Of a stretch of DNA of 64,000 nt, positions 52,695 through 60,038 are shown one piece after another. Source of the stretch: Flavobacteriaceae bacterium UJ101 (GTDB lineage Bacteria > Bacteroidota > Bacteroidia > Flavobacteriales > UJ101); the NCBI GenBank assembly GCA_001880285.1, contig CP016269.1:1994501-2058500 (forward strand), given 5' to 3'. The notes under the pieces were generated by a model that saw only the letters and a list, made by a program, of their open reading frames with translations, ran no database searches and was not told where the DNA came from. The translations under genes were made by a program, and so were the position numbers. How positions within the stretch are numbered: position 1 is the first letter of the stretch; every line of letters begins with the position of its first letter.

Positions 52695-52714
52695 AATCTA
52701 TGAGAAATTTAAAT

Positions 52715-52748
52715 GAAAAAAGATCTCATTCATTAGAATAGATCTTTT
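52715..52748 (-). terminator. duplicated terminator (copy 1)
   Basis: On the minus strand AAAAGATC pairs perfectly with GATCTTTT, with inner ATTC/GAAT, then a T-run. It is the duplicate of the tRNA operon terminator at 52873-52907, in which one pair is a G-U. Confidence 0.7.
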
Positions 52749-52755
52749 AATATTA

Positions 52756-52816
52756 AGAGCTGATAGAGGGATTCGAACCCACGACCTTCCCGAAAGCTTT
52801 CGGGATGCTCTAGGTC
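52756..52816 (-). pseudogene. truncated and rearranged tRNA-Thr copy
   Basis: Positions 52715-52787 repeat 52874-52946 with three mismatches at an offset of 159 bases, covering the terminator, the 3' acceptor strand and T-arm of tRNA-Thr. Beyond that point the anticodon arm is replaced by an 18-base perfect palindrome TCCCGAAAGCTTTCGGGA (52788-52805), followed by a D-arm-like GATGCTCTAGGTCAC, and no 5' acceptor strand follows. A cloverleaf cannot form, so it is not a working tRNA. Confidence 0.85.
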
Positions 52817-52872
52817 ACATTTATAAAGGTTATATTATAGTCGAAGTGTAATTTTTTAGAAAGTTTATTAAT

Positions 52873-52907
52873 AAAAAAAAGACCTCATTCATTAGAATAG
52901 ATCTTTT
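52873..52907 (-). terminator. terminator of the tRNA-Arg-Gly-Thr operon
   Basis: On the minus strand AAAAGATC and GGTCTTTT pair (one G-U) with inner ATTC/GAAT, followed by eight T residues, directly downstream of tRNA-Thr. Confidence 0.85.
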
Positions 52908-52916
52908 AATATTAAG

Positions 52917-52990
52917 AGCCGATAGAGGGACTCGAACCCACGACCTGCTGATTACAAATCAGCTGCTCTAGCCAGCTGAGCTATATCGGC
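52917..52990 (-). tRNA. tRNA-Thr (anticodon TGT)
   Basis: The acceptor pairs GCCGATA with TATCGGC. The anticodon arm CTGAT-TTGTAAT-like loop (CTGATTTGTAATCAG) gives TGT, and the T-arm carries GGTTCGAGTCC. CCA is not encoded. It is the last gene of the three-tRNA operon. Confidence 0.93.
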
Positions 52991-53199: not shown

Positions 53200-53218
53200 A
53201 TCGCGTTGTTTGCGGTTG

Positions 53219-53249
53219 CAAATATAATATAGAAAATCATTTTAGCAAA
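53219..53249 (-). promoter_or_regulatory. promoter of the tRNA-Arg-Gly-Thr operon
   Basis: On the minus strand TTTG (53246-53249), exactly 19 bases, then TATATTTG (53219-53226). The bases after it (CAACCGCAA) are the same as at the tRNA-Val promoter (287-317). Confidence 0.88.
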
Positions 53250-53424
53250 ACTTTTTTTCAAAATTGTGAAATTAAAATGGGGCAAGACTAAATTAAAAGA
53301 AAGTTCATGAAATTTTTACACTTTATAAAGTATATACTATAATTTAATAAAATGATGTTGATTTTTAACTTAGCAAGCCCCCATAGTAATAATATGTATT
53401 AAAATTAAAAAGAATAGAAATGAT

Positions 53425-53814
53425 CTATCTATTGTTTTTATATTGATTTAACATGTTAAGCTGTACATCAGCAATCATAAAAGCACGTTCAATAGCTGTT
53501 GATGAAATAGGACCTTCAAATAACTCATTATTGGTTTCTTTCCATAGTTTTAACCATGTTTCAAAATGATTTTGATCAATTGTATGATTAAAGTGTGTAG
53601 CAGTTTTAACATGAGCTAAAGCAGGATTTCCATTGAATTTTGAAACTCGAAAAAGAATACTTTCCCAAAAATCAGTTAATTTAATTAAATGAGCATCCCA
53701 ATCTTGAATCATTGTATTGAAAAAATATCCTATTTCCTCATTTTTTCTAACTTTAGCATAAAATGTATGAACTAATAGTTCAATGTCATTTCTACTCTGA
53801 ATATCTTGCTTCAT
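53425..53814 (-). CDS. group III truncated haemoglobin
   Basis: This 129-residue cytoplasmic globin has the compact 2-on-2 fold. The pattern LLVHTFYAKVRKNEEIGYFFN, DWDAHLIKLTDFWESILFRVSKFNGNPALAHVKTATHFN and HFETWLKLWKETNNELFEGP is typical of group III truncated globins. The haem-ligand His is probably within THFNH (His74 or His77), and Trp87 is a conserved group III residue. Such globins are linked to nitric oxide or oxygen handling. It overlaps the upstream membrane-protein gene by 23 bases, and so is controlled by the promoter with the Fnr-type site. Confidence 0.9.
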   Translation of the reverse strand: MKQDIQSRNDIELLVHTFYAKVRKNEEIGYFFNTMIQDWDAHLIKLTDFWESILFRVSKFNGNPALAHVKTATHFNHTIDQNHFETWLKLWKETNNELFEGPISSTAIERAFMIADVQLNMLNQYKNNR

Positions 53815-54241
53815 TTTTAAAATTTTTTATTTGTAAATAAGTAAATATAGCTAAACTAATTACTTTTATAAGTTCCATTATAATATAGGTTATATGATAA
53901 AAGTGGCTTTTTAATGGAATTTGATTGATGCGTTCGTCCATTTGATTTAATAAGGGAGGCATAATCCAAAATGTTTGTAATAGTACAATGAATATAGGTA
54001 TAAGTCCTATCCATAATGAACGGTAATTTTTTGTATAAATGAAATAACAAAAAGTTAGGGACGCAAAAACAAGTTCCAATCGATTAAGGGATAAGAAAAT
54101 CTTTTTCCCAATACGTAAAGCTTGTTCGTAAATAACTCCTTCAGCTGTAAACTTTAAGGGAGCTTCAAAAAAGCTAATAGCAAGTACAAAACTCAACCAA
54201 ATGAGTGTAAGAATAAAAAAATAATTAAAACCTTTTGTCAT
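53792..54241 (-). CDS. four-helix membrane protein of the globin operon
   Basis: I do not recognise a named family. The 149-residue protein has four predicted transmembrane helices (YFFILTLIWLSFVLAISFF, LELVFASLTFCYFIY, LWIGLIPIFIVLLQTFWIM, YHITYIIMELIKVISLAIFTYL), with an extra-membrane loop FEAPLKFTAEGVIYEQALRIGKKIFLSLNR after helix 1. Its stop overlaps the globin gene by 23 bases, so the products are coupled. The -7 element at 54246-54253 ends only four bases before the ATG, implying a very short or absent 5' leader. The context suggests a role in respiration or nitrosative stress, but this is inference. Confidence 0.75.
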   Translation of the reverse strand: MTKGFNYFFILTLIWLSFVLAISFFEAPLKFTAEGVIYEQALRIGKKIFLSLNRLELVFASLTFCYFIYTKNYRSLWIGLIPIFIVLLQTFWIMPPLLNQMDERINQIPLKSHFYHITYIIMELIKVISLAIFTYLQIKNFKNEARYSE

Positions 54242-54245
54242 TTAG

Positions 54246-54253
54246 CAAAGATA
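54246..54253 (-). promoter_or_regulatory. -7 element of the globin operon
   Basis: On the minus strand TATCTTTG is a perfect TAnnTTTG; there is no -33 TTTG, and an Fnr-type palindrome occupies the activator position instead (54275-54292). Confidence 0.6.
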
Positions 54254-54274
54254 ATTGGAGAATATATGATAAAT

Positions 54275-54292
54275 TTATGATCAAAATCATAA
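54275..54292. promoter_or_regulatory. Crp/Fnr-type operator between the globin operon and its regulator
   Basis: TTATGAT-CAAA-ATCATAA is a perfect 18-base inverted repeat with the Fnr core TGAT-N4-ATCA. Its centre lies about 41.5 bases upstream of the transcript start predicted from the -7 element at 54246-54253, the classical class II activator position. On the other side it lies just before the Crp/Fnr gene at 54305 and could mediate autoregulation. Confidence 0.75.
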
Positions 54293-54304
54293 TATTGGTT
54301 GTAG

Positions 54305-54883
54305 ATGTTAAGTGAAATAATTTTAGAAGATTTAGGGTGTATTTTAAAGAGAAAAAAAGATGAGATCATTTTTGATGAAGGAGATACAGCGCGTTATTAT
54401 TTTCAAATTGAAAGTGGAGAGGTTGAAATGTTTAATTTATCAAGTGAAGGTAAAAAATATACACAAGGAATTTTTGGAGAAGGAAAAAGCTTTGGAGAAC
54501 CTCCTTTATTTACAGAATCGCTTTACCCTGCTTCATCAGTTGCGAAATCTGATGTGCGTTTGTGGATAGTTGAAAAAAGGGATTTTTTAAATTATTTAAA
54601 TGAAAACCCTGATATTCAGATGATGTTTATTAAAATGTTAGCTAAACGTTTAGAGTATAAAGCTTTAATGGTAAAAGAAGTTTCGTTGCATACAGCAGAA
54701 CATCGAATTAGAACTTTATTAAAACATTTTAAACTAAGTCTTCCAGATAAAACAGTTCCATTTACAAGAAAAGAGATGGCAGAAATGTGCGGTTTGACGG
54801 TTGAAACAGTAATCCGAGAAGTGAAAAAACTAGAAAAAGAAGGCTTTTTGGAATTAAAAAATAGAAAAATTGTTTTAAAATAG
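54305..54883 (+). CDS. Crp/Fnr family transcriptional regulator
   Basis: This 192-residue regulator has a cyclic-nucleotide-binding-like beta-barrel (DEIIFDEGDTARYYFQIESGEVEMFNLSSEGKKYTQGIFGEGKSFGEPPLF), a dimerisation helix (LNENPDIQMMFIKMLAKRLEYKALMVKEVSL) and a C-terminal winged helix (VPFTRKEMAEMCGLTVETVIREVKKLEKEGFLEL). No N-terminal Cys cluster for an Fe-S centre is present, so it is not a true oxygen-sensing FNR; a haem or small-ligand sensor of the DNR/NO-responsive kind would fit its globin neighbour. It is divergent from the globin operon with an Fnr-type palindrome between. Confidence 0.92.
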   Translation: MLSEIILEDLGCILKRKKDEIIFDEGDTARYYFQIESGEVEMFNLSSEGKKYTQGIFGEGKSFGEPPLFTESLYPASSVAKSDVRLWIVEKRDFLNYLNENPDIQMMFIKMLAKRLEYKALMVKEVSLHTAEHRIRTLLKHFKLSLPDKTVPFTRKEMAEMCGLTVETVIREVKKLEKEGFLELKNRKIVLK

Positions 54884-54896
54884 AAAAAATCGGGGA

Positions 54897-56549
54897 CTAA
54901 AATCGAGTAGAGATATTAAGAGTTAAAGCAGAAGCTTCTGAAACAATTCGACAAACTCCACCTACGCATAGTAGTCCACCTCTTTGCCTTCCATATTGAA
55001 CCCCTACTCGGGTAGATCCTTTTGTGAAATTTGACCCAAAATTATAATAATGGATTTGCTTAAGATCATCATCATTACCATAATTATAAATATCATGAGC
55101 ATAGATCGAAAAATTAGGGTTGAAATTCAGTTCAACAGTTCCTCCCATCCAATTTTTAGTGTCAGAATCAGACCATAAATGTTGTAAATCCATTCGAATA
55201 GATTTTTTTCGATTAATTTTATAGGTTGTCTCTGCTACGGCTATATTTGTTTTTACTTCACCAATAGTTTCTTCAATGTATTTTTTGTTGTAAAATTGAT
55301 TTAGATAAGAAAAAATAGAAGACCATTTTTTAGACCATTTCTTTTTTATTTCTAATCCAATATCTTGATAATATTTTTCTCCAAAATCTAAAAAATCAGT
55401 ATCGTATGATCGATCTAAAATATCAAATTCACCGTTTAATCCAGCCCAATAAGAACCATTTAGAGCAATGTCAATACCATATTTTCCACCAATAGCAGAT
55501 CCTTTTTTTATTTTGTAAAATAAATCGATTTGCCCACCTATTTCACCTGCTTTTTGAAGTGGATCAAAAGAAAGATTAGATTGTGCTTGATAGATGTAAA
55601 TATTTTGTAAAGCATAATCGTATTGTTTAGTAAGAGCAGGTAAATAATTTATAACTCCTGTATTGTAAATGTTTCCTCCTAATCCTGTCTCAGAGTATAC
55701 ATTCATATTTTCTAATCTTCTTAAAGTAATATCGGTTCCTAACCCTTTTTTTGAATAGCCGAAATTTAGTAATAAAGCATTTCCTGTATTTTGACTTTCT
55801 TGGTTGATGATTCCATATTCTACTAATGCATCTTTAGATTTATAAACATATTCAGCCCCAGAGTAGAAATTTCCTTTAGAAAAATTAATTCTACCGGAGA
55901 ATAAGTTTACCATTTTAGGTAATAAATCATATTCTTTTTCTAAATTTTCATACTTCCCAACGTAACTAAACCCTAAGGAAAGATCTGTGTCATTCCAAGA
56001 TGATAATGTTGATAAATTGGTTTCCACATCAACACCATATAAGGTGCTTTCTGATAAATCAAACCCCATTCCAATACGTTGTTTCCCACTTAAAAAAGTA
56101 GTATTAATTCCTTCAACTGGACTATACTTTAATCTTCCTCCTAAAAGAGCATTGTTAATTCCTATTTGTCTATCTTCCCAAAAACGAAGTGTTAATCCAC
56201 TTCCAAATTGTTCGTAAAAATGTCCTGCGGTAATTTCTAAATTTCTTTTATTATTTTGATATTTAGCTTGAACAATACCTAAGTCAATTCCATTTAAATC
56301 TGGAGAATAATTAAGTAATGATTTGCTCTCATAGATTTCTAATTGAGTCGTGAAATCGAAATTACCTATTGAATAGTCTGCTTTTAGATAACTATTTGTT
56401 CGAAGTCTATCTTCAGCATCTTCTTCAGAAAGTATGATTTTATCATCATCAATATACCATTGAGAATTTGATTCTAGTCCAAGTGTCAATTGAGAAAAGA
56501 TATAGTTTTTTATAAATAACAGAAATATAAGAGTAAAGGTATTTTTCAT
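54897..56549 (-). CDS. DUF6029 outer-membrane protein
   Basis: This 550-residue exported protein (signal peptide about 1-19, ending FSQ) is built of alternating amphipathic strands, e.g. YLKADYSIGNFDFTTQLEIYES, NLEITAGHFYEQFGSGLTLRFWEDRQIGINNALLGGRLKYSP, ending in aromatic residue F (ALTLNISTRF), which suggests an outer-membrane beta-barrel. The overall pattern fits DUF6029 of Bacteroidota. The function is unknown. It follows the TlpA-like gene by nine bases and is the second gene of that operon. Its 3' end lies 13 bases from the convergent Crp/Fnr gene. Confidence 0.85.
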   Translation of the reverse strand: MKNTFTLIFLLFIKNYIFSQLTLGLESNSQWYIDDDKIILSEEDAEDRLRTNSYLKADYSIGNFDFTTQLEIYESKSLLNYSPDLNGIDLGIVQAKYQNNKRNLEITAGHFYEQFGSGLTLRFWEDRQIGINNALLGGRLKYSPVEGINTTFLSGKQRIGMGFDLSESTLYGVDVETNLSTLSSWNDTDLSLGFSYVGKYENLEKEYDLLPKMVNLFSGRINFSKGNFYSGAEYVYKSKDALVEYGIINQESQNTGNALLLNFGYSKKGLGTDITLRRLENMNVYSETGLGGNIYNTGVINYLPALTKQYDYALQNIYIYQAQSNLSFDPLQKAGEIGGQIDLFYKIKKGSAIGGKYGIDIALNGSYWAGLNGEFDILDRSYDTDFLDFGEKYYQDIGLEIKKKWSKKWSSIFSYLNQFYNKKYIEETIGEVKTNIAVAETTYKINRKKSIRMDLQHLWSDSDTKNWMGGTVELNFNPNFSIYAHDIYNYGNDDDLKQIHYYNFGSNFTKGSTRVGVQYGRQRGGLLCVGGVCRIVSEASALTLNISTRF

Positions 56550-57203: not shown

Positions 57204-60038
57204 ATGTTCATGAAAAAGAATTTGCTTTTGTATCTGTTTACTATGATGGCTCTTTTATTAGGGTTGTTTTCTTGTAGTGGTAATGATGAAAACTCTTCAA
57301 CCGAAGAAGGAGTTAAAACCATTACATTGAGTTTAAATAAAGAAATTATTGATTTAGATGAAAGAGAGACTCTTACATTTAAAGTTATGACTAATTTAGA
57401 TGAAGACGTAACGTCAAAAAGTACTTTGTATGCAAATGATGAAATAATTTCTACTAAAGGGAATTTTTCTCCCAAAAAAGTTGGGTTTTATGAAATAAAA
57501 GCAAAATATGGAGATTTTACGAGTAACATAATTAATGTGGAAGTAAAAGGAACTGTTTTAGAAAAAATCTTTATAAGTTCAAATGTAACTACATTGGATC
57601 TTAATGAAGAAGAAGCTTTTACATTTAGTGTGAAAACAGATTTGGATGTAGAAGCAACGTCTCTGAGCGCTTTTTACATAAATGGAGAAAAAATAGAAGG
57701 AAATACATTTAAGCCAGTAAAAGAAGGAGAATATGAGGCTTATGCGATTTATAAAAATCGCACTAGTGAAAAGATTACATTGTTTGTGAAAAAAACAATC
57801 ATTGAGAATTCTATTACAATAGTTTCCAATTTAGAGAATATAAGTGTTGATTCAGAGGAGGGGTTGATTTTTAATGTGAAAACAGATTTGGATTTTGATG
57901 TAACTTCATCTAGTATAGTCTATGTAAATGGACAAGCAATAGAAGGGAATACATATAGTCCAACGGAAGAAGGTGAGTATAGTATTTATGCTACTTACGG
58001 AGATTATACAAGTGAAACAATTACAGTAACTGCTGAAAGAAAGATTATTGAAAATACTATTGTGATCTCTGCAGAAAACTCAAGTATTGATATTAATTCA
58101 GAGAAAGGTTTTGTGTTTACTGTAAAAACAGATTTGGGAGTTAATATTACTTCGGAAAGTGTTATTTTAGTTAATGGAATAGAAATAACAGGGAATACAT
58201 ATAAACCTACAGTTGAAGGAGATTATGCCGTTTATGCAAGGTATAAAAATTATACAAGTGAAGTAATTACAGTAAAGGCAAAGAAAGATATTGTTGATAG
58301 TAAAATTTTAGTTTCAGCATCTCCTAGCAATGTCGATATCAATTCAGAAGAAGTCTTTACATTTAGTGTAAAAACAGATTTGGATGTAGATATAACATCA
58401 TTAAGTACTATTTATGTTAACGGTTCAGAAATAACAGAAAATACTTATAAGCCAAGTGTAGAAGGGGATTATGAAGTGTATGCAAAGTATGAAGAATATA
58501 CAAGTGAGGTTATTACTGTTACTGCTGAAAAGAAAATAGTTGAGAATTCAATTGCGATTTCAGCATCTCCTACTAATGTCGACATCAATTCAGAAGAAGC
58601 TTTTACATTTAGTGTAAAAACAGATTTGGATGTAGATATAACATCATTAAGTACTATTTATGTTAACGGTTCAGAAATAACAGGAAACACTTATAAGCCA
58701 ACTGTTAAAGGAAGTTATGAAGTGTATGCAAAATATGAAGGATACAGAAGTGAAAGTATTACGGTAATTGCAGAAGAAAAAATTATAGAGAATTCAATTA
58801 CGATTTCAGCATCTCCTAGCAATGTCGATATCAATTCAGAAGAAGTCTTTACATTCAGTGTAAAAACAGATTTGGATGTAGATATAACTTCATTAAGTAC
58901 CATTTATGTGAATGGTTCAGAAATTGGAGAAAATACTTATAAGCCAACTGTAGAGGGAAATTATGAAGTATATGCAAAATATGAAGATTACACTAGTTCA
59001 ACCATTACGGTTGCAGCTCAAGATAGTTCAATAAAAAATATAATGCTATCAGCAGTAAACACATCAGTTAAGATAGGAACAGATCATGAATTTGAGTTTA
59101 CTATACAATCAGATAAAAATGAAGATATAACATCATTAAGTACTATTTATATAAATGGTTCAGAAATTACAGGAAACACTTATAAACCAACTGAAGAAGG
59201 AAGTTATGAGGTGTATGCAAAATATGAAAACTTCACTAGTAATACTATAACAGTGTCTGCTCAATTAGCAACCTTTATAAAAAACGCATTGATTGAAGAT
59301 TTTACAGGTACATGGTGTGGATGGTGTCCTAGAATTTCTTATGCTATTGAGCAAGTAAAATCAAGATCCAATAAAGTAATTTCTGTAGCAATTCATCGAT
59401 ACCAAAGTTCTAATCCTTCTAGTAGAGGTTATGATCCGTTTACATATAATACTCGTGATTATCCGAATGCTCCTAGTTCATATCCAACTGGTAGGTTGGA
59501 TCGAGGGAGAACATGGAGCTCTCCTCAACCAAGTTATTTAAACCAGGTCTTAGAATTAACAGGAGATCGAAATAATTTAGGATTAGCTATTTTGGATACT
59601 TCTTTATCAGGGAATCAAATATCTTTTAAAGTAAAAGTAGGAATAGGGAAAGCAAAAGATCCTTATAATAACAATTTTAAAGATTATAGGAAATTTGGTT
59701 TAGTAGTATATCTTATGGAAGATGATTTGATTTATGATCAAGTTAATTATACCGGATATTATGGAGGAGGAAGTGTGATTTCTAATTTTGAACATGATGA
59801 TGTATTGAGAAGTTCATTGACTCATATGCAAGGGGATGATATATCAGCAAATCAAAGGACGGAAGGAAGTGTTTATACTCGATCTTTTAATGTTCAAGTT
59901 CCGTCAAATATAAAAGATCGATCTAAATTAAAGGTTGTGGCATTTATTGTTGGGAGTTCGACAGGTTATGCGAACTCAGTTCTCAATGCTCAATCTGTTA
60001 AGATTGGAGAAAATCGAGATTTCCAAATAAGTAATTAA
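57204..60038 (+). CDS. Omp28-like lipoprotein with eight Ig-like repeats
   Basis: This 944-residue SPII lipoprotein has lipobox LFSC (Cys24, or Cys22 from the alternative ATG at 57210) followed by SGNDENSS. Residues about 35-690 form eight tandem modules of 81-82 residues, each of the form ISxxxxxxDINSEExFTFSVKTDLDVDITS...VNGxEIxGNTYKP...EGxYEVYAKYxxYTSxxITV, resembling bacterial Ig-like folds. The C-terminal 250 residues are an Omp28-like domain with EDFTGTWCGWCPR, a thioredoxin-like CxxC. No type IX sorting domain is visible. A stalk presenting a redox or binding domain at the surface is inferred. A terminator follows at 60062-60096. Confidence 0.88.
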   Translation: MFMKKNLLLYLFTMMALLLGLFSCSGNDENSSTEEGVKTITLSLNKEIIDLDERETLTFKVMTNLDEDVTSKSTLYANDEIISTKGNFSPKKVGFYEIKAKYGDFTSNIINVEVKGTVLEKIFISSNVTTLDLNEEEAFTFSVKTDLDVEATSLSAFYINGEKIEGNTFKPVKEGEYEAYAIYKNRTSEKITLFVKKTIIENSITIVSNLENISVDSEEGLIFNVKTDLDFDVTSSSIVYVNGQAIEGNTYSPTEEGEYSIYATYGDYTSETITVTAERKIIENTIVISAENSSIDINSEKGFVFTVKTDLGVNITSESVILVNGIEITGNTYKPTVEGDYAVYARYKNYTSEVITVKAKKDIVDSKILVSASPSNVDINSEEVFTFSVKTDLDVDITSLSTIYVNGSEITENTYKPSVEGDYEVYAKYEEYTSEVITVTAEKKIVENSIAISASPTNVDINSEEAFTFSVKTDLDVDITSLSTIYVNGSEITGNTYKPTVKGSYEVYAKYEGYRSESITVIAEEKIIENSITISASPSNVDINSEEVFTFSVKTDLDVDITSLSTIYVNGSEIGENTYKPTVEGNYEVYAKYEDYTSSTITVAAQDSSIKNIMLSAVNTSVKIGTDHEFEFTIQSDKNEDITSLSTIYINGSEITGNTYKPTEEGSYEVYAKYENFTSNTITVSAQLATFIKNALIEDFTGTWCGWCPRISYAIEQVKSRSNKVISVAIHRYQSSNPSSRGYDPFTYNTRDYPNAPSSYPTGRLDRGRTWSSPQPSYLNQVLELTGDRNNLGLAILDTSLSGNQISFKVKVGIGKAKDPYNNNFKDYRKFGLVVYLMEDDLIYDQVNYTGYYGGGSVISNFEHDDVLRSSLTHMQGDDISANQRTEGSVYTRSFNVQVPSNIKDRSKLKVVAFIVGSSTGYANSVLNAQSVKIGENRDFQISN
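58290..59036 (+). repeat. near-identical tandem repeats within the Omp28-like gene
   Basis: Modules 5, 6 and 7 repeat with a period of 246 bases (for example TCAGCATCTCC at 58314 and 58560) and share long identical DNA segments, while modules 1-4 and 8 are more diverged. The start and end given here are approximate. This indicates recent unequal crossing-over within the gene. Confidence 0.85.

Follow-up and report, generated by a model that had tools for sequence, protein, structure and literature searches.

The locus lies in a window of 64,000 nucleotides from Flavobacteriaceae bacterium UJ101 (contig CP016269.1, positions 1,994,501 to 2,058,500), which has a G+C content of 31% and belongs to a Flavobacteriales genome of 3.07 Mb. 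A gap of 63 bp divides two divergent units and contains the palindrome TTATGAT-CAAA-ATCATAA (54275-54292, not assigned to either strand). On the plus strand, the gap is followed by the gene of a Crp/Fnr-family regulator of 192 aa (54305-54883). On the minus strand, an operon starts with the gene of a DUF4149 membrane protein of 149 aa (53792-54241) and continues with that of a group III truncated haemoglobin of 129 aa (53425-53814), the two genes overlapping by 23 bp. No terminator-like matches were found in 53200-55000, and a scan for E. coli-type sigma-70 promoters was uninformative in this AT-rich stretch. Elsewhere in the window, a 79-bp direct repeat (52709-52787 and 52868-52946, 92% identical) contains the 3' part of a tRNA-Thr gene (52916-52990) and the stretch downstream of that gene; the outer copy is a truncated tRNA remnant, left possibly by a duplication or an old integration. 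At 57204-60038, a protein of 944 aa is predicted, composed of about eight repeated units of about 75 residues each that look Ig-like by eye.

The assignment of the globin to group III, as given in the original prediction, could be upheld. Its only PDB match is 2IG3, the Ctb of C. jejuni (E 1.2e-15), and the His and Trp positions of the haem pocket align. The membrane component, which had been left without a family, can now be assigned to DUF4149, albeit marginally (PF13664, 24.9 bits against a cut-off of 24.6). The family alignment displays an invariant SFxE, KF, H116 and E123. A profile search yielded no solved DUF4149 homologue. AlphaFold2, run on the single sequence, gave a poor model (pLDDT 64.6, pTM 0.30), and no Foldseek matches were obtained. 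DUF4149 homologues also adjoin group III globins in three further loci (L067-L069). In another four, of family f5 (L070-L073), they occur in clusters with an Rrf2 regulator, a cytochrome c, the iron-sulphur repair protein RIC (TIGR03652) and a qNOR-like gene, to which the cluster of L072 adds NirK (TIGR02376). Through these four clusters, DUF4149 would be tied to NO independently. Elsewhere, the place of DUF4149 in the regulator-globin loci is taken by a membrane protein of 95-99 aa; homology between the two was considered and none was detected (hhalign probability 0.2%). The membrane partner thus recurs while its identity varies, and a common requirement may lie behind this, for instance a supply of electrons or a place at the membrane. 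In three loci of other genomes (L197, L198 and L200), regulator orthologues adjoin a multi-pass membrane protein of 370-410 aa, which is also present in nos clusters and gave no Pfam match in the two cases scanned.

The palindrome is centred at 54283.5, and its exact sequence occurs only once in the whole 3.07 Mb genome. In simulated 63-bp gaps of the same composition, any perfect 7-4-7 palindrome arises in about 0.9%. Taken alone, this rarity is suggestive only. The comparative evidence described below is strong, and a chance origin could be ruled out from the conservation and the spacing of the site. Of the other palindromes in the genome that have one mismatch, several fall within coding sequence, and none is accompanied by a perfect -7 box at the expected distance. 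The original prediction of a perfect Fnr-type palindrome stands in part: the palindrome is perfect and contains TGAT-N4-ATCA, but it is not a consensus FNR box. The half-site reads TTATGAT with the core ATGAT, in place of the classic TTGAT of FNR, and the operator that is conserved across loci is TTATGAY-N4-RTCATAA instead of TTGAT-N4-ATCAA. A classic FNR box was rejected because of this half-site and because the regulator does not contain the FNR cysteines.

On the minus strand of the gap, TATCTTTG (54253-54246) is a perfect Bacteroidota -7 box (TAnnTTTG) for the DUF4149-globin operon, the first T of which lies 30.5 bp from the centre of the palindrome. The -7 box of F. psychrophilum promoters occupies -12 to -5 (PMC9723704). 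By this rule, the start site (+1) would fall at 54241 on the minus strand and the palindrome would be centred at -42.5, within one base of the earlier proposal (54242 and -41.5). This +1 would coincide with the A of the DUF4149 ATG, and the mRNA would be leaderless, as are 5.5% of the mRNAs of F. psychrophilum (PMC9723704). The spacing is strictly kept: in 21 of the 22 loci examined, from three families, the operator is accompanied by a -7 box at a distance of 29.5-30.5 bp. In 16 loci the distance is 30.5 bp and the box is perfect, while five further loci have 29.5 bp (one perfect box, four with one mismatch); L081 is the sole deviant. As many of the 22 loci come from one genus, they are not independent, and the agreement is to be read between the window (family f1), family f8 and several genera of family f3. 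In the background, a -7 box is found at a fixed place in 0.08% of cases when exact and in 1.2% with one mismatch. As positioned from the -7 box, the centre of the operator would lie at -41.5 to -42.5 in 21 of the 22 loci. The comparative spacing thereby bears out the proposed class II geometry, in which an activator site near -41.5 replaces the upstream promoter element.

The regulator is a member of the Crp/Fnr superfamily, with matches to the Pfam domains cNMP_binding (PF00027, 68.3 bits) and HTH_Crp_2 (PF13545, 41.3 bits). It had been described as lacking the Cys cluster of FNR, and indeed its only cysteines are Cys12 and Cys162, neither of which forms an N-terminal cluster or is conserved in the regulator clade. 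Moreover, no invariant His, Cys or Met was observed among nine aligned orthologues. The recognition helix contains the conserved motif TVETVIR, where that of FNR reads TVETISR. The Glu and Arg that persist in the helix would match the GA that persists in the half-site, and the Ile that replaces Ser212 of FNR would match the change from TTGAT to ATGAT. The clade has a support of 99/99, with the window's regulator on its own branch within it. Scanning the genome contigs with the regulator returned distant relatives only. The genome contains four Crp/Fnr-type matches. A separate FNR-like protein with N-terminal Cys is encoded beside a heavy-metal ATPase-like gene; it falls outside the clade, and the palindrome was not found in the 4-kb stretch around its gene.

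The sampled relatives all belong to other families of Flavobacteriales than the source genome. In families f3 and f8, regulator orthologues with 36-45% identity adjoin group III globins, and the position of the palindrome is the same as in the window (f1). Between regulator and globin, the palindrome is exact in L042, L031 and many genomes of genus g3, and it has one or two mismatches in most of the remaining regulator-globin loci; no good site was found in L078/L124 and L081. The operator precedes the globin operon mostly next to the orthologous regulator. The site accompanies nearly all globins that are linked either to the regulator or to the gene of the small membrane protein. For the 17 unlinked globins, a site with at most two mismatches was found only once, at a distance of 691 bp. 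The same holds at the level of genomes. No perfect combination of operator and -7 box is present in ten genomes where the best regulator match is at most 67 bits, and it is present in two genomes with regulator orthologues of 109-121 bits (G153 and G193). In two others (G302 and G380), a site with one mismatch precedes a small membrane-globin pair and the orthologue (135-145 bits) is encoded elsewhere in the genome. The presence of the site therefore tracks that of the regulator orthologue, in genomes as well as in loci, as the pairing of the two in the original prediction implied.

To delineate the predicted regulon, the genome was scanned for TTATGAY-N4-RTCATAA-N21-TANNTTTG, the composite of operator and -7 box, allowing three mismatches at most and using a reversed control. 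Without mismatches, only the DUF4149-globin promoter of the window was retrieved. With one mismatch, the only match was the promoter of a cupin-HTHP-qNOR-globin operon (G000:C1:240458-243900; loci L127, L141 and L150). Weaker matches were no more frequent than in the control. The qNOR identity is unambiguous from its sequence: the NorB-type protein matches solved NO reductases across 500 residues and contains a NorB cytochrome c-like domain (PF22085). The 98-aa protein next to it belongs to the hexameric tyrosine-coordinated haem proteins (HTHP), and a second group III globin follows the qNOR, so that haem proteins flank the NO reductase. The matrix score of the qNOR operator is 14.8 bits, compared to at least 20.7 in the training sites. 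Given this weaker operator, the qNOR promoter was included on the combined basis of its spacing and of the genes that it precedes.

Among relatives, a perfect composite was found before the NO-inducible flavohaemoglobin Hmp (three genomes) and before cytochrome c-NosZ (two genomes, both of family f5). Close paralogues of the regulator are part of nos clusters that also include NosD, a globin and ABC-type genes. At one such locus, -7 boxes are located 30.5 bp away on both sides of the palindrome. The genome-wide palindrome search that had been proposed, for nor, nir and hcp genes, is thus answered by the qNOR operon, with Hmp and NosZ added in relatives, while no Hcp (Prismane) gene was found in the genome. 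The description of the module as self-contained turned out to be slightly too narrow, since a second operon is predicted to be co-regulated. At one further locus (L213), the regulator is followed by the operator and by ccoN/ccoO-like genes, whose scores are far under the cut-offs for ccoN and ccoO; these possibly encode an unusual haem-copper NO reductase. Separately, TTATGATAACTATCATAA is conserved in three genomes of genus g3 (loci L110, L117 and L120; position 1501), where it precedes a ketoacyl-synthase-like gene by about 50 bp; the one locus checked has no perfect -7 box at the usual spacing.

From the above, the module most likely serves as a compact switch for defence against nitric oxide, of a kind not characterised before. 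Quite probably, the 192-aa regulator acts as an activator of class II type that has no Fe-S cluster, responds to haem or NO, and drives the DUF4149-globin and qNOR operons for the removal of NO. The operator, its spacing, its co-occurrence with the regulator and the content of the regulon come from sequence comparison; in the mechanism proposed on this basis, the dimer would bind directly to TTATGAY-N4-RTCATAA, centred at about -42, and recruit the RNA polymerase to a promoter with a -7 box (TAnnTTTG) and no -33 element. NO or related nitrogen oxides would switch on both the DUF4149-globin and the cupin-HTHP-qNOR-globin operon, upon which the globin and qNOR would remove NO. DUF4149 would act as membrane partner, possibly by supplying electrons or by handling haem or NO at the membrane.

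The same regulator and operator might instead respond to low oxygen or to the redox state, with a globin that handles oxygen. Genes for Nos and cbb3-like oxidases are often under anaerobic control, and one relative displays the order regulator, site and ccoNO-like genes. In addition, the title of a reference in PMC5577044 ties Ctb to oxygen metabolism. Against this speak the missing FNR cysteines, the separate FNR-like protein with N-terminal Cys that has no palindrome in its 4-kb stretch, and the presence of qNOR and Hmp in the regulon; such a signal is considered unlikely. Of the two stresses that had been put forward, nitrosative and oxygen stress, the targets shared across genomes (group III globin, qNOR, Hmp and NosZ) favour NO and nitrogen oxides over oxygen alone.

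Two other readings concern the protein-DNA contact itself. A regulator that represses until it is released by NO, with the palindrome as an operator that blocks the promoter, has a very low probability: in the window the site precedes the ATG of the regulator by 21 bp, which would suit autorepression, but in the target promoters it is almost always centred near -42, where it stands before the -7 box and takes the place of a -33 element, as expected of an activator. The 21-bp distance could nonetheless allow the regulator to control, and repress, its own gene. Slimmer still is the chance that the palindrome is bound not by the adjacent regulator but by the Cys-containing FNR-like protein or another Crp/Fnr paralogue. 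Such binding would be in line with the FNR-type core TGAT-N4-ATCA and with the four Crp/Fnr-type matches in the genome. However, the site follows the orthologue of the adjacent regulator and not the distant paralogues, which are present in all genomes tested; it adjoins the regulator in most loci, and two fitting promoters are too few for a global FNR regulon.

Beyond this genome, an NO defence switch of the preferred kind may represent a new Flavobacteriales subfamily of NO-responsive Crp/Fnr regulators. Such a subfamily would have its own operator and a fixed class II geometry on Bacteroidota promoters, and its targets in the various families would be group III globins, qNOR, flavohaemoglobin and NosZ. 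The co-expressed membrane protein, DUF4149 in the window and the smaller, unrelated one in other loci, would be a partner of the globin in removing NO at the membrane. This wider proposal is tentative and has slightly less than an even chance. No comparable NO-defence regulator of flavobacteria was described in the literature searched, in which few subscription journals were covered. An operator, a promoter geometry and a regulon for flavobacterial NO defence are hereby made testable, and a domain of unknown function (DUF4149) as well as an unnamed small membrane protein are tied to it. A route is also provided to the question of where truncated globins obtain their electrons. In some relatives, the control of NO detoxification would moreover be linked to the reduction of N2O by NosZ.

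One of the closest functional parallels may be NssR of C. jejuni, which controls cgb and ctb. This is a Crp/Fnr-family regulator with a small regulon that turns on a group III truncated globin in response to nitrosative stress (PMC4601167, PMC1274295); its NO-sensing chemistry is unknown (PMC4601167). The likeness would lie in the activation of such a globin in response to NO, for which the globin and the promoter geometry are present in the window. In contrast, the operator of NssR is TTAACnnnnGTTAA, read by the specificity residues A180/Q181 (PMC1274295), whereas the system in the window has TTATGAY-N4-RTCATAA, Val166/Glu167 at the corresponding positions, and a link to a membrane protein and to qNOR/NosZ. 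The haem-based, NO-responsive DNR of Pseudomonas controls nir, nor and nos genes through the box CTTGATnnnnATCAAG (PMC1274295). Of the NO regulators with a solved structure, DNR is the nearest to the window's regulator (3dkw, 44.8 bits), which would likewise be a Crp/Fnr activator of NO and N2O reductases, in view of the predicted sites before qNOR in this genome and before NosZ in two relatives. Yet the sequence similarity is low, and compared to CTTGATnnnnATCAAG the first T is replaced by A, with TT/AA as flanks. HcpR and HcpR2 of Bacteroides and Porphyromonas, which are involved in nitrosative stress and haem-based in P. gingivalis (PMC12750200), appear similar as Bacteroidota Crp/Fnr regulators; HcpR2, however, has the motif GTAACnnnnGTTAC and hcp as target (PMC1274295), while this genome has no Hcp. 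With FNR of E. coli, the TGAT-N4-ATCA core and the class II placement are shared, but not the Cys cluster, the recognition helix (TVETVIR here) or the TTGAT of the operator. As judged from these comparisons, the system is one that would work like NssR and DNR, is a member of neither as defined, and has an operator of its own.
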